Assembly (NCBI GenBank): GCA_014729315.1
Contig: WJKD01000954.1
Span: 1-10,354 of the forward strand
Origin: Promethearchaeota archaeon
GTDB taxonomy: Archaea > Asgardarchaeota > Lokiarchaeia > Sigynarchaeales > SOKP01
Direction of reading: 5' to 3'
DNA: 10,354 nucleotides
In this document: piece by piece, positions 1 through 10,354 of the stretch
Position numbering within the stretch: the first letter of the stretch is position 1
Layout: every line of letters begins with the position of its first letter
Translations under genes and position numbers: made by a program
The notes under the pieces: model-generated
What the model was told of the DNA's origin: nothing
What the model saw: the letters and a program-made list of their open reading frames with translations, nothing else
Databases searched by the model: none

Positions 1-1659
<1,659 letters not shown>

Positions 1660-1673
1660 TTATTCATGAATAA
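1660..1673. promoter_or_regulatory. 14-bp perfect palindrome at the predicted gyrB transcription start
   Basis: TTATTCATGAATAA is self-complementary over all 14 bases. It sits 34 bp before the gyrB ATG and about 25-30 bp downstream of the candidate TATA box, where transcription should begin. A dimeric repressor site or supercoiling-linked control is possible. In DNA this AT-rich chance cannot be excluded, but 14 exact bases is longer than most AT palindromes here. Confidence 0.4.
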
Positions 1674-1696
1674 GATGATATTTTAACGATTTACAT

Positions 1697-1706
1697 ATAA
1701 TATAAA
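1697..1706 (-). promoter_or_regulatory. candidate TATA box for gyrB
   Basis: On the minus strand this reads TTTATATTAT, a good archaeal TATA-box match. It would place the start of transcription near 1672-1676 and give a leader of about 45-50 nt. The 261-bp gap between the 70-residue ORF and gyrB holds this box, the palindrome at 1660-1673 and no other gene that I can support. Confidence 0.45.
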
Positions 1707-1887
1707 GTGTTTCTAGCTTATTAATGTTTAGTGGATTTTTAAAACAAGAGGGCACTCTAAAACTCACTAATTTTATACGGAAATATATTATACTTGATAA
1801 TTTTATTTAGGAATATGTAATATCTATAAAGAAATAGGTCAAAATTAATCCATTAACGAAGAGACCGAGGTTTGAATTCTACTGTTC

Positions 1888-2100
1888 TTAAGGCTCCGCC
1901 TTCTCTATATTCGTATTTATGAATAGTTTAGGAGATATAAGATTCTTCTCTACGTGATCCAACTTATCTGGGCAATATATTAGATTGGATTTGCTTATAT
2001 TCCAAAATTTTCCCGGTTTAGGTTTTCTAGATACACAATTTAGTCTACTTTCTCCGATTTCGGAAATAATTTTATCTAAAATTGTTCGCTTAGGATTCAC
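1888..2100 (-). CDS. small protein of unknown function, coupled to folP
   Basis: A 70-residue ORF beginning with GTG whose first bases overlap the folP stop (GTGA), a layout typical of translational coupling. The product is basic in its first half (KPKPGKFW near residues 27-33), contains two cysteines (C23, C44), and has no signal peptide or membrane segment. I do not recognise a family. The tight overlap supports a real gene co-expressed with folP, perhaps a small partner or an accessory of pterin metabolism, but that is inference. Alternatively it is a chance ORF, or the remnant of a C-terminal extension of the synthase. A short GC-rich hairpin (1890-1902) lies in its last codons. Confidence 0.5.
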   Translation of the reverse strand: MNPKRTILDKIISEIGESRLNCVSRKPKPGKFWNISKSNLIYCPDKLDHVEKNLISPKLFINTNIEKAEP

Positions 2101-2966
2101 TTCGAGTCCCTAAGCGATTTAGCCATTATCAAAATTTCTTTAAGCTGACTATTGACATCGTGCGTTCTAATGATATGTGCTCCGTTATATACCGCGATCG
2201 CTGTGGCAGCTAGAGTTCCGTTAAACCGGTTCTCCGGTTCCTCGATATTTAGAACAGCTCCAATGAAAGATTTTCTCGATAAAGCAACCAAAATAGGCTT
2301 ACCTAGCACCCGTAATTTTTCAAGATTAGTTATGATTTTCATATCACATTCAGGAGTCTTTTCCTCAACCCAGCGACCTATGCCAGGATCTAGTATAATT
2401 AAATTCTCGTCATAGCCGTTATTAATTAAATTTTCAATGACAACTCGAAATTCTTCTATAATTTCTTCAATCGTAAGAATATCACCAGGGATCTCTTTTG
2501 AAGCCATTAGAATAACCGGAAGCTTTTGTTCTACGACATATTCTTTTAAGCGGGTGTCTGTATTAAAACTACTTACGTCGTTAATAATCACGTTTCTGTC
2601 GTATTTTTTTGCAATTTCATGTGCTTTCTTAGCGACTTTCATATATTGAGTATCAATCGAAACCAGAACATCTTTTTGAATGATTTTACATACTGTTTTT
2701 ATAGCCGGTATTATCCTATTTATTTCTTCCTGTAAGCTAATTTTATTCGACCAAGGGGCCGTCGAGCGAGCGCCTATATCAAGAATTTTGGCACCATTTC
2801 GAGTCATTGAAAGGGAAACTGATTTTAATGCAGACATATCCTCATATACAGAACCTTTAAAAAAGGATTCGGGACTTAAATTAAGCACGCCCATAACGAT
2901 TGGAGGTAAATCATCTCCTATTTCTAGTGATTTAAAAAGTTTTGTGAAAATTTTTGTCATTATCAT
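2097..2966 (-). CDS. folP: dihydropteroate synthase (archaeal-type, variant active-site loops)
   Basis: TIM-barrel pterin-binding enzyme that joins 6-hydroxymethyl-dihydropterin pyrophosphate to p-aminobenzoate, or possibly to a ribofuranosyl-aminobenzene phosphate, in folate or methanopterin synthesis. Numbered from the ATG at 2966 (289 residues), it shows MGVLNLSPESF (25-35, N29), SIDT with D105, NDVSS with N129, DPGIG with D193, SRKSF with K232, and RTHDV with R267/H269. These match the catalytic and pterin-binding residues of bacterial DHPS. Two substrate loops differ: the usual GGESTRP is GARSTAP (65-71), so the loop-2 Arg is Ala, and the usual MH after the fifth strand is MAS (154-156). 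The start is uncertain: an in-frame TTG at 2987 and a second ATG at 2960 are alternatives. It is followed without a gap by a 70-residue ORF. RR1 lies upstream on the same strand, with a candidate TATA box in the gap between them. Confidence 0.88.
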   Translation of the reverse strand: MIMTKIFTKLFKSLEIGDDLPPIVMGVLNLSPESFFKGSVYEDMSALKSVSLSMTRNGAKILDIGARSTAPWSNKISLQEEINRIIPAIKTVCKIIQKDVLVSIDTQYMKVAKKAHEIAKKYDRNVIINDVSSFNTDTRLKEYVVEQKLPVILMASKEIPGDILTIEEIIEEFRVVIENLINNGYDENLIILDPGIGRWVEEKTPECDMKIITNLEKLRVLGKPILVALSRKSFIGAVLNIEEPENRFNGTLAATAIAVYNGAHIIRTHDVNSQLKEILIMAKSLRDSK

Positions 2967-3021
2967 GAATGCAATAAAAAGTATCAAGTAATTATATTTC
3001 TTTTAAAATGATTATAATTGA

Positions 3022-3031
3022 ATAAATATAA
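3022..3031 (-). promoter_or_regulatory. candidate TATA box for folP
   Basis: The minus strand reads TTATATTTAT, about 60 bp before the chosen folP ATG. This predicts a start of transcription near 3000 and a leader of 35-40 nt, and it favours the internal ATGs (2966/2960) over the TTG at 2987. Other AT-rich runs nearby make the choice uncertain. Confidence 0.35.
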
Positions 3032-3061
3032 TGAATATTTTATTATATTCAGAACTTTAAC

Positions 3062-3934
3062 TTAATGCTTTGAAAAAATTAAATTTATTTCATCCCAGAA
3101 ATCCGTGATTTTCCATATATCCCCTTTTTTTATTTTATTTGAGATAGAATCCATTATTTGACGCAGATTTATAGATTGCTCGTAAGAGATAGTAGACGCA
3201 ATTAAACCAATCATAAAAAATTGCTCATTTGATTTTTTAGGAAGTCCATCAAACAAAATAAATGCTCTTTTATTTAGTTTTGGAAGAGTGATTAATAAAT
3301 CTCCAGAAATATCATTCTTATTTCCTGGAATTAGATTTCTATACCCATGAATTATTTGAGAGGCTATTTTCTCTACCTGGAAATCTGGTTCGTGTAGGCT
3401 ATAATATTGATTTATTATTGGTCCTAAAACCTTATCCCAGTGTATATATATAAAGATCAAATTATTCTTGTTTTCGTCTTCTTCCTTGGAATCTACTGAT
3501 TTTCTGCTAACTATTGATTTAACTTTTTCGATTTGTTTAATGCTCACTTTTTTGGTTTGAGATCTCAGAAGTTTTCCTTTAATGACTGCAATCAAATCAT
3601 CTTCAGAAATCGGTTTAATAAGGTAATCGTCAACCCCAAGTTGCTTTCCTGCTCGTATTTCTTCGGGAGATGAGAGTTCAGTAAGAAAGATAAAAGGAAT
3701 TTTATTCCATTTGGGATTTTTGGTCAATTCTAAAAATAACTTCATACCGTTCATTTCTGGTATATTAATGTCAGAAATTATTAAATTTGGTTGGGATATT
3801 TCTTTTTGCAGGATATTCAAGGCTCCATTCCCATTTCTTGCTATCAGGACATCGAAATCATTTTTTTTAAGAAGAATTTTCGTCTTATTAAGGAAAAACT
3901 CGTCCTTATCAACTAAAAGAATTAGAAAATTCAA
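3062..3934 (-). CDS. response regulator RR1: receiver plus longin-like C-terminal domain
   Basis: A 290-residue signalling protein. Residues 1-122 are a CheY-type receiver with acidic D9/D11, phospho-acceptor D55 (ISDIN), T85 (FLTEL) and K107 (KP). A charged linker (about 123-157) leads to a C-terminal domain (158-290) that is not a helix-turn-helix or a known enzyme. It begins with a strand and IHWDKVLGPII (164-174), followed by strands such as ISGDLLITL and FFMIGLIA. The W-D-x-x-L-G-P start followed by an aromatic-rich stretch recalls longin-type domains such as those of NPRL2 and FLCN; this is a judgement by eye. The start codon is TTG: no ATG is in frame before the upstream stop, and a TATA-like box lies only about 20 bp upstream, suggesting a leaderless mRNA. 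It diverges from the paralogue RR2. No histidine kinase is in the window. Confidence 0.88.
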   Translation of the reverse strand: MNFLILLVDKDEFFLNKTKILLKKNDFDVLIARNGNGALNILQKEISQPNLIISDINIPEMNGMKLFLELTKNPKWNKIPFIFLTELSSPEEIRAGKQLGVDDYLIKPISEDDLIAVIKGKLLRSQTKKVSIKQIEKVKSIVSRKSVDSKEEDENKNNLIFIYIHWDKVLGPIINQYYSLHEPDFQVEKIASQIIHGYRNLIPGNKNDISGDLLITLPKLNKRAFILFDGLPKKSNEQFFMIGLIASTISYEQSINLRQIMDSISNKIKKGDIWKITDFWDEINLIFSKH

Positions 3935-3948
3935 GGTCTTAATATTTG

Positions 3949-3958
3949 TTATAAATAT
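3949..3958 (-). promoter_or_regulatory. candidate TATA box for RR1 (leaderless arrangement)
   Basis: The minus strand reads ATATTTATAA with its centre about 20 bp before the TTG start of RR1. At the usual spacing to the start of transcription, the mRNA would begin at or very near the start codon, so translation would be leaderless. This also supports TTG as the true start. Confidence 0.35.
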
Positions 3959-4153
3959 GAAAAAATTTATCTTTTATCCGATGATTTTATCTATTCGTCT
4001 TACTATTAATAATTATTCCTTAATTTAATCCTCTTAAGACATTTAAATCTGGGTTTATCATTTAAGATCAGAAGATAAATTCATCAATCATAACCTTCTA
4101 AAAAAGTATAATTAAAAATTCTTTAATACCAAGTCAATTTCAAATTCTAAAGA

Positions 4154-4161
4154 TTTAAATA
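4154..4161 (+). promoter_or_regulatory. candidate TATA box for RR2
   Basis: TTTAAATA preceded by a purine-rich AAAG that could serve as a TFB recognition element. It predicts transcription from about 4182-4187 and a 35-nt leader before the ATG at 4220. The 285-bp spacer between the divergent RR genes also holds a short inverted repeat (TTTATC 4054-4059, GATAAA 4074-4079) and no gene. Confidence 0.35.
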
Positions 4162-4219
4162 ATTGCGTAGCATAGTTAATCTTTAGGTAATTTTTTACTT
4201 GACAGTATGATTAGGAAAA

Positions 4220-4906
4220 ATGCAACCGCTCATTTTAATTGTTGACGACAATCCAGAGCTTTTAACAAGTTTAAAAAGGATTTTAGAAATAAATAATTAC
4301 AAAGTGAAGACCGCAACGAATGGAAAAGCAGCTCTTAAAATTCTTTCTGATCTATCCGAACTGCCCGATTTGATTATAAGCGATATTGTCATGTCTGAGC
4401 TGGGAGGATACGATTTCTTTCAAAAAATTGCGAGTAATGCACAATACTACAACATTCCTTTTATCTTTTTAACAGGGTTATCTTCTCCCGAAGAAATTCG
4501 ATTGGGTAAAAGATTGGGCGTAGACGATTACATAACAAAACCTTTTAAAGAGGAGGATCTTCTGGCGACGATAAAAGGAAAATTATTTAAAAGAAAGATA
4601 ACCTCCACTTTGGAAAAAAATCTTGGTGAGGGAAACAAAAATAAATTTGCTTTACCAAATGTCATCAAAATCAATCGTTCCAAGAACATCAAACTATTTT
4701 TTGTGGAATGGGATGACGAATTGGGTCCGATCATCGATCATAATTACTATCCAAAAGAAAAAGATAAAAATTTTGATATCGATAAATTAGGACCAAAATT
4801 ATTTAACGGGATGGTTATGCTTTATGGACAAGATAAAATCGATTCTGCAGGATCAATTTTGATTCACATGGATCGCATACGACGTTATGCTTACCTTTTT
4901 TTTTAA
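4220..4906 (+). CDS. response regulator RR2: receiver plus longin-like domain, cut short by a frame change
   Basis: Paralogue of RR1 with the same layout. The receiver (1-122) has D9/D10, phospho-acceptor D55 (ISDIV), T85 and K107. Over residues 81-122 it matches RR1 at 32 of 42 positions without gaps. The C-terminal domain starts at about 157 and carries FVEWDDELGPII (161-172). This frame ends at residue 228, within a beta strand, at a TAA immediately after nine T (4896-4904). Sequence continuing in the next frame (to 5096) matches the rest of RR1. Skipping one T would give 291 residues, against 290 for RR1. So this is probably one gene whose reading is broken by a homopolymer length error, a recent mutation or slippage. 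It diverges from RR1 and converges with the GTPase gene. No DNA-binding domain is present, so output is likely by protein contact. Confidence 0.88.
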   Translation: MQPLILIVDDNPELLTSLKRILEINNYKVKTATNGKAALKILSDLSELPDLIISDIVMSELGGYDFFQKIASNAQYYNIPFIFLTGLSSPEEIRLGKRLGVDDYITKPFKEEDLLATIKGKLFKRKITSTLEKNLGEGNKNKFALPNVIKINRSKNIKLFFVEWDDELGPIIDHNYYPKEKDKNFDIDKLGPKLFNGMVMLYGQDKIDSAGSILIHMDRIRRYAYLFF

Positions 4907-5096
4907 TTTTTATCTTGTAGGTGGGCGAGGAAAAGCTGAAAGACAAAATTATATGATCGGAGTAATAGCTCCCAAAATTAATTATTATGATTCCTTAAAA
5001 CTAGAGCAAATTGCCAAATTGATCTCCGAAGACTTAAACTCTACTGAACAATTTGATATAAAATCATATTGGAAAAAGATAACTAGGTTTCTTTAA
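4887..5096 (+). CDS. C-terminal remainder of RR2 in the shifted frame
   Basis: Continuation of the longin-like domain of RR2, displaced by one base at the T run 4896-4904. The ATG at 4887 lies inside the upstream frame and is probably not a real start; the coding match to RR1 begins after the T run. Recognisable shared pieces are NYMIGVIA (FFMIGLIA in RR1), a helix with SLKLEQIAKLIS (INLRQIMDSIS in RR1) and the ending SYWKKITRFL (DFWDEINLIF in RR1). Conservation up to the stop codon argues that the protein was recently, or still is, translated in full. Taken alone it has no function I can name. Confidence 0.7.
   Translation: MLTFFFNFYLVGGRGKAERQNYMIGVIAPKINYYDSLKLEQIAKLISEDLNSTEQFDIKSYWKKITRFL
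4896..4904 (+). other. T9 tract at the RR2 frame break
   Basis: Nine consecutive T form the junction between the two RR2 frames. Deleting one T, or adding two, restores a continuous protein with the length of RR1. Such a run is a common site both of sequencing length error and of true polymerase or ribosome slippage, so it could be an artefact, a pseudogenising indel or a phase-variable switch. Confidence 0.7.
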
Positions 5097-5114
5097 CGAA
5101 GCGCAATTCTCTGT

Positions 5115-5129
5115 TAAAATAAAATTTTA
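5115..5129. terminator. possible bidirectional terminator between RR2 and the GTPase gene
   Basis: TAAAAT and ATTTTA flank a three-base loop in the 58-bp gap between two converging genes. T-rich sequence on both strands would suit archaeal termination in either direction. The stem is all AT and short. Confidence 0.3.
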
Positions 5130-5154
5130 CCTATAATTATCTCATATTAGGAAA

Positions 5155-5697
5155 CTAAATTGCGAATTTTTTCTCGAAGGTGGTATAAATGGTTGTTTCA
5201 AATATTTGATAAAAATGATCTTCTTTTGCCATTATGTAATTTAATGTATTTAATAATTCGTCTACTTTTTCTTCTGGTACCTCGGGATGCATCTCGAACA
5301 GATTAGGATCAAATTTATGTAAAAAAATATCTGTAGAAATCGTAATTTCGTTTTCTCTCAGCTTTGCCAGGATCTTTTGTAGATAATCGATTGCCAAATC
5401 GTATTTATCAATTCCTTGAACATCAATGACATATATTAATTTCTGTGCTCCTTTAAAATATTCGTTAAAATTTTCTATATAATCGTTTCGATATTGGCTC
5501 TGTCCTCCCAAATCCCATATATTATATTTCGTGTGGTCTAGATAAATATTGGATATTTCTGCACTCTTGGTTGGCTCAATCGAAAGAAAATCGAGCAGAT
5601 TAATTCTACCCGAAAGACTCATTACTATTGAAGTTTTTCCAACATCGTTTAATCCTGCTATAACAATCTTCATGATATCGGATTTACTATTTGACAT
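5155..5697 (-). CDS. Gtr/Rag-like small GTPase
   Basis: A 180-residue Ras-superfamily GTPase. Motifs: G1 P-loop GLNDVGKTS (15-23, K21, T22), G2 T43 (EPTKS), G3 WDLGGQ (61-66, D62, Q66), G4 HKFD (127-130) and a G5-like ETTI (167-170). HKxD in place of NKxD, WDxGGQ, and the LIYVIDVQ strand (87-94) together point to the Gtr/Rag branch rather than Arf, Rab or MglA. There is no N-terminal glycine or C-terminal cysteine for lipid attachment, and no C-terminal roadblock domain as in eukaryotic Rags. The protein stops about 10 residues after G5, so the last helix is shorter than usual. It is 9 bp behind an ArsR-type gene on the same strand, so the two form an operon. A second ATG at codon 9 is a possible start. 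Its neighbours carry longin-like domains, a fold found in regulators of Rag proteins. Confidence 0.88.
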   Translation of the reverse strand: MSNSKSDIMKIVIAGLNDVGKTSIVMSLSGRINLLDFLSIEPTKSAEISNIYLDHTKYNIWDLGGQSQYRNDYIENFNEYFKGAQKLIYVIDVQGIDKYDLAIDYLQKILAKLRENEITISTDIFLHKFDPNLFEMHPEVPEEKVDELLNTLNYIMAKEDHFYQIFETTIYTTFEKKFAI

Positions 5698-5706
5698 AAT
5701 TTTCTA

Positions 5707-6048
5707 TTAAATTCTTAATGTCTCGAGTTTATTTTCATCCAAAAGTTTTTCATATTCTTGTTTTTTCTGCTCTAATACGAAAGACTGGATAATATTAATT
5801 ACTTTGAATATGTTTTGGTTTACTATAGAATATACGCGAACATTCTCATCGTTTTTTTCATATGCAATCAGATGCCATTTTGCAAGAACCTTTAATTGTT
5901 GAGATGTGTAAGATTGACTAATTTCTAAAGCTTCCTCAATCTCCTTTGCGGTCTTACGGGTATTTCTTAAAAGTTTAATAATTTCAAAACGAACTGGATC
6001 GCCTAAAATGCTTAAGAATTCCGTGATTGAAGTTGTTAATTTACTCAT
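5707..6048 (-). CDS. ArsR-type winged-helix transcriptional regulator
   Basis: A 113-residue single-domain regulator. Helix 1 contains LSILGDPVRFEIIKLL (12-27), typical of the ArsR family. The recognition helix-turn-helix spans about 32-60 (TAKEIEEALEISQ, then TSQQLKVLAKWHL), and the wing follows at 61-75 (IAYEKND, VRVYSI). A C-terminal helix (78-105) probably makes the dimer. There are no cysteines, so it is not a classical thiol metal sensor and its signal is unknown. It is first in a two-gene unit with the Rag-like GTPase, 9 bp apart. AT-rich palindromes cluster upstream and could be its own operator. The start is the ATG at 6048; there is no evident Shine-Dalgarno, and a TATA-like box lies about 60 bp upstream. 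Confidence 0.88.
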   Translation of the reverse strand: MSKLTTSITEFLSILGDPVRFEIIKLLRNTRKTAKEIEEALEISQSYTSQQLKVLAKWHLIAYEKNDENVRVYSIVNQNIFKVINIIQSFVLEQKKQEYEKLLDENKLETLRI

Positions 6049-6104
6049 TTTCGTACCATGTGTGTTTATGATGAAAAAGATTCCTAACTAGTAATTGATA
6101 TATA

Positions 6105-6115
6105 TTATATATAAA
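6105..6115 (-). promoter_or_regulatory. candidate TATA box for the ArsR-GTPase unit
   Basis: The minus strand reads TTTATATATAA, about 60 bp before the ArsR ATG, predicting a leader near 36 nt. The first of several palindromes overlaps its upstream edge. Confidence 0.4.
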
Positions 6116-6179
6116 TATGATATTAAAGTTTTTTAATATTGCGATATTGATGGATGGTAATATTTAAATATCATGATAT
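6114..6179. promoter_or_regulatory. cluster of AT palindromes, possible ArsR operator region
   Basis: Four inverted repeats fall within 66 bp: AATAT-G-ATATT (6114-6124), AATAT-TGCG-ATATT (6135-6148), ATATTTAAATAT (6160-6171) and ATATCATGATAT (6168-6179). The first two share the same half-site, which resembles the AT-rich dyads that ArsR-family dimers bind. They lie between the ArsR promoter and the plus-strand genes, so one repressor could control both directions. Base composition alone will produce some such repeats. Confidence 0.35.
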
Positions 6180-6214
6180 CCCTATCAAAGATATAACGAA
6201 TTAAATATAAAAAA

Positions 6215-6400
6215 TTGATTAAACTGAAACAATATTTAGACTACGACAAGGACACTCAAAAAATATTTTTAAGTTGTTTTTTTGAAGATTCCAGTATTGT
6301 AGTCAAACTTAAATTGATTGACGAGGAAGAGAAAGACGAGAGATTAAAAATAGAACTGTTTAACCTCGCCAGTAGCACATATTTAGTTCATGTTATTTAG
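6215..6400 (+). CDS. possible small acidic protein, unknown
   Basis: A 61-residue ORF opening with TTG; no ATG is in frame. The product alternates strand-like stretches (KIFLSCFF, SIVVKLKLI) with an acidic patch IDEEEKDE near residues 35-42, and has no membrane segment or known motif. A candidate promoter (TTTAAATAT at 6163-6171) lies about 45 bp upstream. It ends 29 bp before the Lrp-type gene, so a two-gene transcript is possible. I do not recognise a family, and the odd start codon and lack of a Shine-Dalgarno leave real doubt that it is translated. Confidence 0.35.
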   Translation: MIKLKQYLDYDKDTQKIFLSCFFEDSSIVVKLKLIDEEEKDERLKIELFNLASSTYLVHVI

Positions 6401-6414
6401 AATAAAATATAGAT

Positions 6415-6419
6415 GAGGT
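6415..6419 (+). promoter_or_regulatory. Shine-Dalgarno for the Lrp-type gene
   Basis: GAGGT lies 10 nt before the ATG at 6430 and is the clearest ribosome binding site in the window. It decides the start: the nearer ATG at 6425 runs into a stop after one codon. Its presence suggests that this gene is translated from a leadered, possibly polycistronic message. Confidence 0.6.
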
Positions 6420-6429
6420 AAAAAATGAT

Positions 6430-6954
6430 ATGATAAATAGTAAAATTGGTTTAGACGATATAGACATGAAAATTGTACAGATTATTCAAAAGGATCCTAC
6501 AATAACGCACACAATGATTGCGAAGCGGGTAAATCGTTCGCAACCTACTGTCGGATTGAGAGTTAAAAAATTGGAGAAATCTGGGATTTTACATTATCAA
6601 GCGGGATTTAACTTAAATCAGGTTAATTTAGTATATGCAAAAGTTGATATCGAAACTAAATATCCCGAAAAGATTATAAAAATAATTAAAAAATGTCCGT
6701 ACATGATCCATGCGTATCGCGTTAGCGGTTTAAACAATTTAGTAGTAGTCATTGCAGCTTCAAGCACTAAAAATGTAGAAAAAATAGTGAATTTTCACTT
6801 TCGGAACAATCCAAAAATACAAAATGTAACGCTAGAGTTTATCACCGGTATTATTAACGAATTTATATTACCATTGGGTTTAAATTTTAAACAATGCGAA
6901 TGTTCTAAGGTTATAGATAACGAACAAGAACAATTGTGGGAAGTTGGACACTAA
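6430..6954 (+). CDS. Lrp/AsnC-family transcriptional regulator
   Basis: A 174-residue regulator. The N-terminal helix-turn-helix spans about 8-54: LDDIDMKIVQIIQKD, then TMIAKRVNRSQPTVGLRVKKLEKSGIL, the usual Lrp/AsnC signature. The C-terminal part (about 65-150) fits the RAM ligand-binding and oligomerisation fold, with VYAKVDIE, an RVSGLNNLVVVIAA strand-turn-strand and an EFITGIINEF segment. Lrp proteins bind amino acids or other small effectors and form dimers to octamers. Length is slightly above the usual 150-165 because of a hydrophilic tail that contains a CEC pair (156-158), which might respond to metal or redox; that is speculation. It is 63 bp upstream of the TFB gene on the same strand and has a good Shine-Dalgarno. 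Its target and effector cannot be read from sequence. Confidence 0.9.
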   Translation: MINSKIGLDDIDMKIVQIIQKDPTITHTMIAKRVNRSQPTVGLRVKKLEKSGILHYQAGFNLNQVNLVYAKVDIETKYPEKIIKIIKKCPYMIHAYRVSGLNNLVVVIAASSTKNVEKIVNFHFRNNPKIQNVTLEFITGIINEFILPLGLNFKQCECSKVIDNEQEQLWEVGH

Positions 6955-6963
6955 TATAATCTA

Positions 6964-6973
6964 ATTTAAAAAA
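6964..6973 (+). promoter_or_regulatory. candidate TATA box for the TFB gene
   Basis: ATTTAAAAAA, about 50 bp before the ATG at 7018, would place transcription start near 6994 with a leader of about 24 nt. It sits within the 63-bp gap after the Lrp-type gene, so the TFB gene may have its own promoter in addition to any read-through. Confidence 0.3.
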
Positions 6974-7017
6974 GATTCTAATTATTCAAATAGATAATTA
7001 AAAAGAATGTATTAATT

Positions 7018-7932
7018 ATGATTAGACCTGAAATTCAACAATATGAAGTACTAGATAGAGATGACGGATTTTCAAAGTGTTGCGATAATCCCAGTATTAT
7101 TAAAAGTGAGGGATATTTTGTATGTAAAAATTGTGGAGTTCAAAGCGAAAGAGTTTACAAACATAACAGAGGATATTTTTACAAATACAAAGACGATGTG
7201 AATACGAAACAAAATGAAAAAGTCTATAGCAGAATAGGTCCTCGTACAGTAATTAACGGATACAGAGATGGAAAAGGAAGCGAATTGAAACCTTTAATTT
7301 TGTCTAGATATAGAAGATTAGCAAAAATTAACAGGGGTTTTAGGAACGGATACGAGAGAAATCTATGGATTGCATTTCCCATTTTTAACAAATATAAATT
7401 TACGCTTAATATACCGCAATATATTGAGCAAGATGTGATGAAAATTTATCTTTATATCGCGAAACAAAAGCTGGCCTTAGGACGTACTATAGACGCAATG
7501 ATGGCCGCATCCGTATATGTCGGATTAAAAATAAATGAAATTGCGATTTCAATCGAAGAAATTGCGGACATAGGCCATATTTCCAAACAAGCGTTAGTTA
7601 AGGGATACCAAATAGTCTTTTCGGAAGTATTGCCTAATCTTAATCTTTCAGTAACCAGTTATTCCCCCTATCAATATATTAATCAAATCACAAGTCAAAT
7701 GAAATTGACTATGAGAGTTAGAAAAACTGCCATCAATCTCCTCAGAAAAGCTGAAGCGATAGGATTGAACTTTTCGGGTAAAGATCCAAAAGGTATCGCA
7801 GCGGCATCGATTTATCTTTCGTCCAAAATTTGTGAAGAAGATGAAACTCAAAAAAATATTTGTAAATACGCCAAAGTTTCAGAAGCAACGCTTAGGGTAC
7901 GAAAAAAGGAAATAAAAAAATTCCTGAAATGA
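7018..7932 (+). CDS. tfb: transcription initiation factor B (TFB/TFIIB family)
   Basis: A 304-residue archaeal general transcription factor that recruits RNA polymerase to TBP-bound promoters. The N-terminal zinc ribbon is unusual: C21-C22 as the first knuckle, then C36-x-x-C39 (CKNCG), instead of two spaced CxxC pairs. A B-reader/linker region follows (about 60-100, with IGPRTVI). Two cyclin repeats come next: repeat 1 contains GRTIDAMMAASVYVGLKI (155-172) and repeat 2 contains KDPKGIAAASIYLSSKI (255-271), both classic TFB signatures. Repeat 2 ends with a helix-turn-helix (VSEATLRVRKKEI) that would read the BRE. Length is normal. It is downstream of an Lrp-type gene and upstream of kaiB. Divergence in the ribbon suggests a specialised paralogue rather than the main TFB, since archaea often have several, but only the rest of the genome could show this. 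Confidence 0.95.
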   Translation: MIRPEIQQYEVLDRDDGFSKCCDNPSIIKSEGYFVCKNCGVQSERVYKHNRGYFYKYKDDVNTKQNEKVYSRIGPRTVINGYRDGKGSELKPLILSRYRRLAKINRGFRNGYERNLWIAFPIFNKYKFTLNIPQYIEQDVMKIYLYIAKQKLALGRTIDAMMAASVYVGLKINEIAISIEEIADIGHISKQALVKGYQIVFSEVLPNLNLSVTSYSPYQYINQITSQMKLTMRVRKTAINLLRKAEAIGLNFSGKDPKGIAAASIYLSSKICEEDETQKNICKYAKVSEATLRVRKKEIKKFLK

Positions 7933-7935
7933 TTG

Positions 7936-7970
7936 TAGAATTTTAATAACTCTAAACCATCTAAATTCTA
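7936..7970 (+). repeat. inverted repeat just after the TFB stop
   Basis: TAGAATTT (7936-7943) and AAATTCTA (7963-7970) form an exact 8-bp stem around a 19-nt loop, starting 4 nt after the TFB stop codon. It could fold in the 3' end of the mRNA. The half-site TAGAAT/ATTCTA recurs before kaiB. Confidence 0.35.
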
Positions 7971-8021
7971 TCTATTTTAAAAATCTTAATTTTCCCATAA
8001 AATTATCAGAAGGGGTAAGTA

Positions 8022-8034
8022 TTTTTTTTCTTTT
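8022..8034 (+). terminator. T-rich terminator after the TFB gene
   Basis: T8-C-T4 about 90 bp after the TFB stop, followed by another T7 run at 8060-8066. Archaeal RNA polymerase terminates at such T tracts without needing a hairpin. It probably separates TFB transcription from kaiBC. Confidence 0.5.
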
Positions 8035-8205
8035 AGTATTAATAAATTATTAACTCGATTTTTTTATGCTTTAATCATTATTAATCAATAGGAACTATAC
8101 AAAAAAGAGTATAAAAAATAAAAAAATAATGAAACTCGCAACAAAAAGCGACGATTTTAAATCACATTTAAAAAATATTAAAGATAATAAGAATTTAATG
8201 TATTA

Positions 8206-8224
8206 ATTCTAAAATAAATAGAAT
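8206..8224. promoter_or_regulatory. dyad upstream of kaiB, possible operator
   Basis: ATTCTA and TAGAAT surround seven bases and end 32 bp before the kaiB ATG, near where transcription from the TATA-like run 8168-8177 would begin. A dimeric regulator could bind here; which one is not known. Confidence 0.3.
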
Positions 8225-8256
8225 CCAAAAAAGAGCGAACAAAAAACGGGAATAAA

Positions 8257-8514
8257 ATGAGTAATTTTATGTTCATGTTGTTTATTGCTGGGATGAATAC
8301 CAAATCAAAAAGAGCGCTCAAGAATATAAAAAGCATACTAAGCAAAATGAACATAGATTACGATTTAATCACGATTAATCTCTTAGAAAATATTCAAATT
8401 GCCGAAACAACTAGAATTGTCGCTACTCCAATGTTAATAAGAACGAAACCTGGACCGATAATGAGATTTGTGGGCGATTTCTCAAATTTGGAATCTGATT
8501 TGATCGTAAGTTAA
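8257..8514 (+). CDS. kaiB: KaiB-family clock protein
   Basis: An 85-residue thioredoxin-like KaiB. The N-terminal strand and turn FMLFIAGMNTKSKRALKNI (5-23) match the KaiB pattern LYVAG.TPNS..AL..L. The ATPML stretch (56-60) keeps the proline of the family's ATPTL motif, and KPGPIMRFVGDFSN (64-77) matches PPPVRRIIGDLSN. The C-terminus is about 15 residues shorter than cyanobacterial KaiB, ending soon after the region that refolds when KaiB binds KaiC. KaiB attaches to the first ATPase ring of phosphorylated KaiC. It lies 20 bp before kaiC on the same strand, which supports a functional pair. Translation starts at the ATG at 8257, with a weak GGGA about 9 nt upstream. Whether it switches fold cannot be judged from sequence. 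Confidence 0.9.
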   Translation: MSNFMFMLFIAGMNTKSKRALKNIKSILSKMNIDYDLITINLLENIQIAETTRIVATPMLIRTKPGPIMRFVGDFSNLESDLIVS

Positions 8515-8534
8515 AGCTTAATTTCTGAAGAGTC

Positions 8535-9986
8535 ATGCAAAAATTATCTAAAATTCCCAGTGGTATTGAGGGCTTTGATTACATTTCTAAGGGAGGTATC
8601 CCTCTAAATAGAACGACTTTAATTTCGGGTACTCCGGGGAGTGGAAAAACGATATTTTGTGTTCAATTTCTTATTGGAGGGATTGAAAACGCAAATCAAC
8701 CGGGAGTTTTTGTAACTTTTGAAGAATCACCTCAAGATATTGTTGAAAATATGATTGACTTCGGTTGGGACATTCAAAAGCATATAGATAATGGGCTTTG
8801 GAAATTTGTTGACATTTCGCCATATGTTAATGACGATTTTGAGATTAAAGGAGATTATGATCTAAGCGGGCTTCTGATTAGAATCAAGAGCACAATAAAA
8901 AAAATTGGGGCAAAAAGAGTAGCGTTAGATTCGTTAGCAGCTCTCTTTAACCAATTCCCCGATTCCTCCATTGTAAGAAAAGAAATTTTAAGGCTTAAAA
9001 CTTGTCTTAAATCTTTGTCAGTTACATCGCTAATCACATCAGAATACTACGAGGACTATCCTAAATATCATCAATTTGAAATCGTTGATTTTGTCAGCGA
9101 TAATCTAATAATTTTAAAGAATAGTCCATCGCGGGAATATCGCAGAAGAACCATAGAGATTCTTAAATATAGGGGCTCTGATCATAGAAAGGGGCAGCAT
9201 TCTTTTACAATAAGAGCCGACAGAGGAATAGTTATTATTTCTTTTGAAAGACAACTAGATCCGTTGAATATTAACACAAAACGAGTTTCATCAGGTTTGG
9301 AAGATTTAGACGAGATCCTCGGAGGAGGACTTTTCCAAGGATCAACCACTCTTATTTCTGGACAGACTGGTACAGGAAAAACACTATTATTACTTTCAAT
9401 GTTAAATGGGTTGTTACAGAAGGGAGAAAAATGTATCATGTTTAACTTTGAAGAAAGTAGAGAACAAATCTTGAAAAAAGCCCTGTTATGGAACATTGAT
9501 TTAGAAAAAGCAGAAAGAGGGGACCAGTTTAGGTTATATAATATTTACCCAGAATCACAAGAAATTGAAGATCTTATAATTGATGTTAAGACCAAGTTAA
9601 AAGAATTTTCTCCTAATCGAGTATTTATTGATAGTATTTCTGCGTTAGAACGAATAACCACGGAAATCACTTACAGAGAATCTTTAATTAATATGCTCCT
9701 CTATTTTCGAGAAATGAATATAATCGGATTTTTAACGAGTACCTCGCCCGCTGTTGAATTTACTTTATTAAATTCACAAGAACATATTTCTACGCTCTCA
9801 GATGCAATAATTTTGTTGCGATATTTTGAAAGAGATGGCAAAATTGGTCGGGCTTTAGCTATAATGAAAATAAGAGACTCAGATCACTCAAAATATTTCT
9901 TAGAATACAAGATTAGTGATAATGGCGTGAGTATCCTTTCCCCAATAAAGCAAAATATGGGAATCTTCAAAACTTTGAATGTATAG
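8535..9986 (+). CDS. kaiC: KaiC-type double-domain ATPase with conserved phosphorylation pair
   Basis: A 483-residue protein with two RecA-like KaiC domains. CI: Walker A GTPGSGKT (32-39), catalytic E63-E64 (TFEES), Walker B aspartate D132 (ALDSLAAL). CII: Walker A GQTGTGKT (276-283), E306-E307 (NFEES), Walker B D366 (FIDSISAL). In CII, SQEHISTLSDAI (414-425) aligns with the cyanobacterial segment holding S431-T432, so S419-T420 are the likely autophosphorylation sites and S414 occupies the T426 position. KaiC hexamers autophosphorylate and dephosphorylate to keep time or relay state. The protein ends about 35 residues earlier than S. elongatus KaiC and lacks the A-loop tail that KaiA binds; no kaiA is visible. 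It is preceded by kaiB. Many archaeal KaiC-like proteins have other roles, but the kept Ser-Thr pair and the kaiB neighbour make true KaiC the best call. Confidence 0.95.
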   Translation: MQKLSKIPSGIEGFDYISKGGIPLNRTTLISGTPGSGKTIFCVQFLIGGIENANQPGVFVTFEESPQDIVENMIDFGWDIQKHIDNGLWKFVDISPYVNDDFEIKGDYDLSGLLIRIKSTIKKIGAKRVALDSLAALFNQFPDSSIVRKEILRLKTCLKSLSVTSLITSEYYEDYPKYHQFEIVDFVSDNLIILKNSPSREYRRRTIEILKYRGSDHRKGQHSFTIRADRGIVIISFERQLDPLNINTKRVSSGLEDLDEILGGGLFQGSTTLISGQTGTGKTLLLLSMLNGLLQKGEKCIMFNFEESREQILKKALLWNIDLEKAERGDQFRLYNIYPESQEIEDLIIDVKTKLKEFSPNRVFIDSISALERITTEITYRESLINMLLYFREMNIIGFLTSTSPAVEFTLLNSQEHISTLSDAIILLRYFERDGKIGRALAIMKIRDSDHSKYFLEYKISDNGVSILSPIKQNMGIFKTLNV

Positions 9987-9993
9987 AACTACG

Positions 9994-10005
9994 TTTTTAA
10001 TTTTT
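9994..10005 (+). terminator. T-rich terminator after kaiC
   Basis: Two T5 runs separated by AA begin 7 nt after the kaiC stop. They lie in the 22-bp gap between two converging stop codons, so kaiC transcripts should end here or overlap the opposing gene antisense. Confidence 0.45.
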
Positions 10006-10008
10006 CCC

Positions 10009-10354
10009 TTACACAATACTCGTATTCAAAACCAATATTAACAATAATAATCCTAATCCTGAGGTTAAAAAACCAATAATGATTTCCCCCTTTCTCTCAT
10101 TAAAATTTTCAAAAAACAACGATCCTAACGGCGTTGCAATAATACCGGCAATAACTATGGTTGATAAAAGTGCGATATCAGAAAGGACAATATTTCCGAA
10201 AAAAAGAAGATAGAGTAGAAAGCCCAATCCTGAAATTGTCGATTCAGAAAACGAAGTTAAAGTTTTAATCCCCTCGTAATTACCATCTTTGAATACTTTT
10301 TTGTAGGTTATCAAAGGCCCATATCCTGCTCCGGAAATTATTTGATTAAAAGAC
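10009..10354 (-). CDS. TauE/SafE-like membrane permease, C-terminal part (5' end beyond the window)
   Basis: The frame stays open to the right edge, giving 114 visible C-terminal residues. The first visible part, SGAGYGPLITYKKVFKDGN, resembles the glycine-rich repeat opening the second half of TauE/SafE (DUF81) transporters, in which an anion-exporting bundle is built from two similar halves. Three hydrophobic segments follow: STISGLGFLLYLLFFGNIV, ALLSTIVIAGIIATPLGSLF and a last one ending in LGLLLLILVL, separated by a short charged loop (NERKGE). Such proteins are proposed to export sulfite, sulfoacetate or other small organic anions; the substrate cannot be inferred. A TTG at 10314 is in frame but probably internal, because coding resemblance continues upstream of it. 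It converges on kaiC with only 22 bp between stops. Family assignment is by eye on a partial protein. Confidence 0.65.
   Translation of the reverse strand, partial: SFNQIISGAGYGPLITYKKVFKDGNYEGIKTLTSFSESTISGLGFLLYLLFFGNIVLSDIALLSTIVIAGIIATPLGSLFFENFNERKGEIIIGFLTSGLGLLLLILVLNTSIV

Follow-up and report, generated by a model that had tools for sequence, protein, structure and literature searches.

Receiver-longin response regulators beside Rag-like GTPases in Asgard archaea: a possible phosphorelay-to-GTPase switch

Two response regulators share an output domain beside a Rag-like GTPase

We analyzed a 10,354-nucleotide stretch of DNA from a Promethearchaeota archaeon (GenBank assembly GCA_014729315.1, contig WJKD01000954.1, positions 1 to 10,354; hereafter the window), in which two response regulators, RR1 and RR2, lie next to a Rag-like small GTPase (Table 1). 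Besides these three genes, the contig encodes a gyrB-like protein (assigned by eye), a Pterin_bind protein (9.1e-53), ArsR-type and Lrp-type regulators, TFIIB, KaiB and KaiC. RR2 and the GTPase gene are convergent, as a preliminary description of the sequence had noted, with 58 bases separating their ends, and the ArsR-type gene lies 9 bases upstream of the GTPase gene.

RR1 and RR2 match at 36% over their whole length. The preliminary description held that they share an output domain, neither DNA-binding nor a known enzyme, that opens with W-D-x-x-L-G-P-I-I, and the shared domain was confirmed. Both proteins matched Response_reg, both output domains start with the motif, and homology extends to the C-terminal parts (31% over 132 residues; two-sequence BLASTP, E 1e-20), the output-part alignment scoring 180 vs at most 67 across 1000 shuffles. 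No Pfam family rose above the cut-off in either output domain (best, Bromodomain at 0.011 for RR1 and Pih1_fungal_CS at 0.091 for RR2), the best 25 NCBIfam matches of each protein were all receiver-based, and no curated longin model matched RR1 or RR2 (Pfam, E up to 1). RR2 is interrupted at a run of nine T, a break that the preliminary description did not mention: the frame stops at 4906 and continues in another to 5096, the read-through product being 291 amino acids (aa). The receiver site of RR1 reads DKDTK, with one of five positions lost, and that of RR2 reads DDDTK and is complete.

Table 1. Features of the receiver-longin and GTPase locus in the window.
Feature	Position	Strand	Evidence
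RR1: receiver + longin response regulator, 290 aa, TTG start	3062..3934	-	Response_reg 1.2e-20; output modelled as longin
RR1 receiver, residues 5-118: D55, T85, K107 kept; second residue of acid pair is K10	3581..3922	-	
RR1 longin output domain, ~residues 156-290	3065..3469	-	
RR1 WDKVLGPII motif (W166 to I174)	3413..3439	-	Alignment with family and C9orf72
RR1 K234, β4-β5 loop, family Arg column	3233..3235	-	Model and family alignment
RR2: receiver + longin response regulator, frameshifted	4220..5096	+	Response_reg 1.8e-25; read-through alignment to RR1
RR2 receiver: complete acid pair, D55, T85, K107	4232..4573	+	
RR2 WDDELGPII motif	4709..4735	+	
Nine-T run at RR2 frame break (sequencing error or true frameshift)	4896..4904	+	
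Rag-like small GTPase, 180 aa, G domain only	5155..5697	-	Gtr1_RagA (PF04670) 3.1e-21
GTPase G1 motif GLNDVGKT	5632..5655	-	Conserved columns
GTPase G3 motif WDLGGQ, Q66 invariant in 54/54 aligned rows	5500..5517	-	
GTPase G4 motif HKFD	5308..5319	-	
ArsR-type regulator, usual first gene of block	5707..6048	-	HTH_5 2.2e-9; clusters 10/13/29
Lrp/AsnC-type regulator, divergent from ArsR, likewise in many relatives	6430..6954	+	HTH_24 1.4e-13; cluster 1

The output domain is modelled as a longin

The longin topology is β1-β2-α1-β3-β4-β5-α2-α3. In the model of the RR1 output domain, the elements follow in the order E E H E E E H H, with β4 at residues 222-230 and β5 at 239-246. The model matches solved longins, and the nearest solved folds include the FLCN-, FNIP- and C9orf72-type longins, in keeping with the resemblance to NPRL2- and FLCN-type longins first proposed by eye. 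No DENN domain follows: the longin extends to residue 290, the last of RR1. When Pfam was run over 86 members of the family described below, 27 families were matched, no longin model stood among the 25 listed, and a single member matched Folliculin (PF11704, E 0.047). Judging from the model, the receiver-linked output domain almost certainly has a longin fold.

Receiver-longins recur in Asgard genomes and keep their receiver sites

A search of 5.8 billion proteins with the RR1 output-domain region returned only RR1 itself, and relatives were therefore reached through a Candidatus Lokiarchaeia genome. An unrestricted genome scan for the window GTPase gave one locus, in this genome, where a 40% relative of the window TFIIB was found as well; these hits and the named relatives below point to an Asgard origin of the window. 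The genome searches were restricted to the phylum of the Lokiarchaeia genome (227 Asgard genomes) and are thus uninformative on other phyla; outside these genomes, the search covered one large protein collection.

A two-sequence profile of RR1 and RR2 found matches in 71 of the 227 genomes (E up to 0.001), of which 66 reached <=4e-11; five of the 71 (G056, G057, G063, G064, G089) had weak hits in longer proteins only. Eight weak hits were left unfetched (G045 C307, G056, G057, G063, G064, G089, G153 C152 and G156 C61). With an 86-row profile, 80/227 genomes were matched (E up to 1e-6), the gain consisting mostly of weak hits to longer proteins. In the protein collection, a central member used as query recovered 212 relatives at E up to 0.001 from 290 candidates. 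Most of the 120 relatives listed are nameless, the names given being 'response regulator', 'CheY-like', 'PleD family' and 'unnamed protein product'; the named relatives come from Lokiarchaeota, Promethearchaeota, Hermodarchaeota and one metagenome-assembled genome (MAG) labelled Nanopelagicaceae, perhaps a mis-binned contig.

Altogether 106 open reading frames (ORFs) carried the domain. Among the 95 used for the receiver count (270-345 aa, or the window's two), D55, the Thr/Ser and the Lys were each kept in 94 and the second acid in 91, so that the predicted phosphorylation site is retained in the family. For the longin alignment, 94 ORFs passed the length filter and 87 remained after dereplication; 85 of these plus RR1 were aligned, L114 and L122 being excluded.

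The GTPase belongs to a clade of short Rag-like G domains

The small GTPase had been described as Gtr/Rag-like, and this assignment holds: it scores 76.3 bits against Gtr1_RagA (cut-off 22) and carries WDLGGQ and HKFD. Its AlphaFold2 model (pLDDT 86.9) has LokiRagO as best PDB match (TM 0.80). A C-terminal roadblock domain is absent, the protein ending at 180 aa after the G domain. Because K21, T43, G65, Q66 and HKxD are kept in 54/54 aligned rows, these GTPases should be able to hydrolyse GTP.

In a tree of 96 GTPases, the window protein falls in a clade of 48 rows (support 100/99), all short Rag-like G domains. A receiver-longin is linked to 45 of these; L145, L159 and L161 were not counted as linked. 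The cluster 42 GTPases form a separate clade (100/100) and adjoin a receiver-longin in 8/8 loci observed, and the Rab-like and larger Rag-like types found near receiver-longins fall elsewhere in the tree. Since the loci in the tree were collected around receiver-longins, these linked fractions are biased, and the count made from the GTPase side (45/74, below) is the fairer one.

Some window-clade GTPases have other neighbours. At L145 (238-5965), one lies in a cluster with a 146-aa protein and two proteins of 669 and 694 aa; both match the longin at the N-terminus (1.1e-13 and 9.7e-13, respectively) and have TPR hits, those of the second falling below the cut-off. At six further loci (L173, L175, L176, L178, L182, L183) a window-clade GTPase stands beside a 750-940 aa protein (cluster 310), a 130-150 aa protein being present in 5/6. 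By eye only, the large protein of L176, L178, L182 and L183 (750-790 aa) has a secreted or membrane look and a cytoplasmic longin- or roadblock-like end; this reading was not borne out (hhalign against the family, 0.2%; Pfam Sybindin at 0.037, in one only), and the same reading of the ~130-aa protein at these four loci found no PDB support.

Receiver-longins and GTPases recur in a block with a histidine kinase

We fetched 100 neighbourhoods, called their ORFs and clustered them; the RR2 tail and one 79-aa ORF were dropped, leaving 104 receiver-longin ORFs in the neighbour count. The usual gene order is an ArsR-type regulator, a Rag-like GTPase (~180 aa), a histidine kinase (mostly 560-870 aa) and the receiver-longin, often with a divergent Lrp gene. 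In 33 loci the kinase lies between GTPase and response regulator, which share one strand, and the ArsR gene adjoins the GTPase; in further loci the GTPase directly precedes the response regulator or, as in the window, is convergent with it (L046, L077, L093). MASE3, PAS, HisKA and HATPase domains were found on the kinases by Pfam (one tested in each of the three main kinase clusters), the ArsR, Lrp and other kinase labels of the relatives being given by clustering with tested or window genes, or by eye.

The preliminary description had read the window as a possible phosphorelay-to-GTPase switch and pointed to other Asgard genomes, where the proximity indeed recurs. A GTPase lies within three genes of 66/104 receiver-longin ORFs. 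By offset from the receiver-longin, it is found at -2 in 35/90 and at +1 in 16/101, falling to 0-6% at four or more genes away. Counted from the other side, over the best 89 hits of the 227-genome GTPase search, a receiver-longin lies within 5 kb of 45/74 short GTPases (at most 212 aa) and 0/15 long ones, against a crude expectation of 0.3. In a small control, biased in that its three genomes (G122, G157, G108) were chosen for holding the block, a PF04670 match lay within 5 kb of 4/7 receiver-longins vs 5/46 other receivers (p 0.012). A correlation between longin and GTPase distances (rho 0.70, 0/500 permutations) was not used as evidence because that between receiver and GTPase was nearly equal (0.65) and shared ancestry explains it. 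Receiver-longin and GTPase are, on this record, probably linked in function. The usual block also supplies a histidine kinase, so that the phosphorelay has its kinase in the common arrangement, though not in the window.

Variant architectures occur as well. A hybrid PAS-HisKA-HATPase-receiver-longin protein is encoded at L080 (6674-10845; assigned by Pfam) and L106 (by clustering), flanked by genes for a Roadblock-Ras protein and a Rag-like GTPase, one GTPase gene on each side. L075 (9319-11001) encodes a PAS-longin protein with no receiver or kinase match. Short receivers (159- and 129-aa frames) lie less than 1 kb from Rag-like GTPases in G108 (C10 660531-660869) and G157 (C4 31358-31696), so that other phosphorelay-GTPase pairs may exist. 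Away from the block, window positions 8257-9986 hold KaiB (PF07689 2.7e-16) followed by a double-domain KaiC (PF06745 1.2e-108, two stretches), directly downstream of TFIIB.

A W-D motif and a β4-β5 arginine suggest GTPase-activating activity

The W of the family motif is present in 85/85 rows with a letter there and the D in 72/85, and the pair aligns with W33-D34 of C9orf72. According to the available part of PMC8213707, C9orf72 meets ARF1 at an interface that includes Trp33 and Asp34, and the double mutant lost almost all activity as a GTPase-activating protein (GAP). In the β4-β5 loop, an arginine occurs in 72/86 family rows, six residues before a Tyr/Phe. FLCN (6ulg_L) has an arginine at residue 164 with the same six-residue spacing to its tyrosine (R164-Y170), and we take R164 to be its arginine finger. 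For the Avl9-type DENN GAPs, the accessible text of a preprint predicts a catalytic arginine between longin β4 and β5 (PMC12803157). The family arginine is present in 53/55 GTPase-linked rows, 19/20 other rows and 0/10 rows of cluster 8, that is, in 72/75 rows outside cluster 8 and the window. RR1 has a Lys in the arginine column and an Ile in place of the conserved Tyr; RR2, read through, has a Lys at the same spacing, with an Arg three residues after and another two before.

Cluster 8 (L130-L140, L142, L144; 13 ORFs) is the only sizeable group away from GTPases, with 0/13 ORFs having one within three genes, and its genes lie mostly among iron-sulfur (Fe-S) and flavin adenine dinucleotide (FAD) oxidase genes. 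Besides the arginine, its members often lack the D or G of the W-D-G-P motif. As they form one sequence cluster, the loss of the arginine probably counts as one event and not ten. In 10/13 cases the next gene encodes a CCG/4Fe-4S protein (Pfam on L138 only), and FAD_binding_4 genes are often nearby.

The W-D motif and the arginine together suggest GAP activity for the family. Taken with the receiver sites, they point to a phosphorelay-controlled longin more likely to act as a GAP than as a guanine nucleotide exchange factor (GEF). That the family longin is specifically an arginine-finger GAP is possible, if short of probable.

Discussion

The receivers, longin fold, Rag-like G domain and recurrent block with a kinase are computed features of these genomes, and the block is likely a two-component system that acts, through its longin output, on a cognate small GTPase. 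In such a system, a membrane (MASE3) histidine kinase would sense a signal and phosphorylate D55 of the receiver, which would alter the dimer state or exposure of the FLCN/FNIP/C9orf72-like longin. The longin would then bind the Rag-like GTPase from the same operon and alter its nucleotide state, more likely as a GAP than as a GEF, and the ArsR protein would probably control the operon. The phosphorelay-to-GTPase idea is supported for the family; from phosphotransfer and phospho-switching to the longin-GTPase contact, its direction and GAP over GEF action, the steps themselves are what we infer. In its fullest form, with Asgard His-Asp phosphorelays switching a homodimeric arginine-finger longin GAP that turns off its own Rag/Arf-like GTPase, the proposal is tentative, its chance a little below that of the arginine finger by itself.

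Several observations weigh against this picture. No GTPase lies within three genes of 38/104 receiver-longin ORFs, among them all 13 of cluster 8 and some at contig ends, and no receiver-longin was hit within 5 kb of 29/74 short GTPases. Of these 29 loci, 20 were fetched. In four (L169, L174, L179, L185) a kinase lies on the GTPase side opposite ArsR and the locus runs out at or close to this kinase, L169 still including a truncated receiver-longin. No kinase adjoins the GTPase in the remaining 16, of which some have ArsR alone and six a large membrane protein. Rag-like GTPases also have other receivers nearby, and the control at 3 kb gave 2/7 vs 3/46 (p 0.12), which is not significant. Longins have roles besides GTPase control, as stated in the available part of PMC10933270. 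The window itself has no kinase ORF; RR1 carries K10 and K234, and RR2 is frameshifted, with Lys at the Arg spacing.

RR2 occupies the usual kinase position in the window, with RR1 next, and the window looks derived, a rearranged and partly degenerate copy of the block; the state of RR2 and RR1 may be decay, sequencing error or a derived form. That RR1 and RR2 are a duplicate in decay that has ceased to work as a switch comes close to an even chance without reaching it: the nine-T frameshift of RR2, the D-K acid pair of RR1, the Lys at the finger column and the missing kinase favor decay, against which the RR1 frame is open and its longin core kept, the RR2 receiver site is complete, the GTPase is intact, and runs such as the nine T are a classic site of sequencing errors. 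As the window genes are odd and partly degenerate, the evidence favors the idea more strongly for the family at large than for these two regulators.

For the family, the strongest competitor to a GAP is a receiver-longin that serves as a GEF or GTPase loading platform (cf. TRAPP longins and roadblock dimers). Both window regulators have Lys, not Arg, in the β4-β5 loop, and in Myxococcus RomR/RomX, of which RomR is a receiver-domain protein, is a GEF for MglA (PMC9481161, PMC6785124, in the parts available). With FLCN and C9orf72-SMCR8, parts of GAP complexes, among the nearest folds, and the arginine kept by nearly all rows outside cluster 8 and the window, we consider this reading rather unlikely.

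The signal could also run in reverse, a GTP-bound GTPase docking on the longin and gating the response regulator or kinase, with the longin as effector or input module. Neighbourhood data carry no direction, and receiver-attached domains could also be inputs, as the available text of PMC5847659 allows. Such a scheme is nonetheless improbable: neither RR1 nor RR2 showed a further output domain and the majority of relatives have a length of ~300 aa, so that the longin would be the phosphorelay's only exit. Slightly less probable still is a longin that merely dimerises or localises the regulator, the GTPase being a neighbour through shared ArsR control without direct contact; the GTPase-free cluster 8 and the ArsR-GTPase pairs with no adjoining kinase or response regulator speak for it, but the link recurs with GTPases of several clades and in several orientations, and in cluster 8 the arginine is gone, as often is the D or G of the motif.

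If a phosphorelay-controlled longin GAP is indeed what these genes encode, the FLCN/NPRL2/C9orf72 GAPs would have in it a relative or forerunner governed by phosphorylation, with a membrane kinase replacing the eukaryotic nutrient-sensing complexes. Should the link be real, relatives of the eukaryotes would have had Rag/Arf-like GTPases under a longin control of eukaryotic type that was itself subject to a bacterial-type phosphorelay.

Comparison with known systems

Our literature search, with most subscription journals outside its coverage, found neither the receiver-longin nor the block described, and neither is described in the available parts of PMC10933270, PMC5847659, PMC8213707, PMC12803157 or PMC8336837. 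The nearest known systems are the longin GAPs, the Asgard roadblock-longins, RomR-MglA and the receiver-roadblock protein NitrOD3. Unlike the longin-DENN GAP complexes FLCN-FNIP, NPRL2-NPRL3 and C9orf72-SMCR8, receiver-longins are archaeal, lack a DENN domain, have the longin fused to a phosphorylatable receiver and are presumably homodimers, RR1 of the window differing further by the Lys at its Arg column. The Myxococcus RomR-RomX/MglA-MglB system is alike, as far as the partly available sources describe it, in that it, too, has a protein with a receiver domain acting on the nucleotide cycle of a small Ras-like GTPase. It differs in being bacterial and in having its roadblock part, MglB, as a separate protein, and RomR is, to our knowledge, no receiver-longin. 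NitrOD3 (Galperin et al. 2018, PMC5847659) likewise joins an archaeal receiver to a roadblock-like output; as far as that paper's available text goes, it belongs among the Nitroso- output domains and not to Asgard archaea, its output is a roadblock and not a longin, and the words 'longin' and 'GTPase' do not occur in the main text.

The Asgard roadblock-longin and longin-GTPase proteins (8yqg; Tran et al. 2024, PMC10933270) have no receiver in the part of that account available. The same part gives 37 predicted Rab-like proteins in Loki and tens of small GTPases per Asgard genome, and reports that the GTPase genes of MK-D1 generally lie outside operons with roadblock or longin genes, which makes it difficult to match GTPases with their GAPs or GEFs. 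The GTPases of the block, in contrast, often stand beside receiver-longins, and here the gene order ties one clade of GTPases to its own longin regulator, together with a sensor kinase and a transcription factor, within short blocks.

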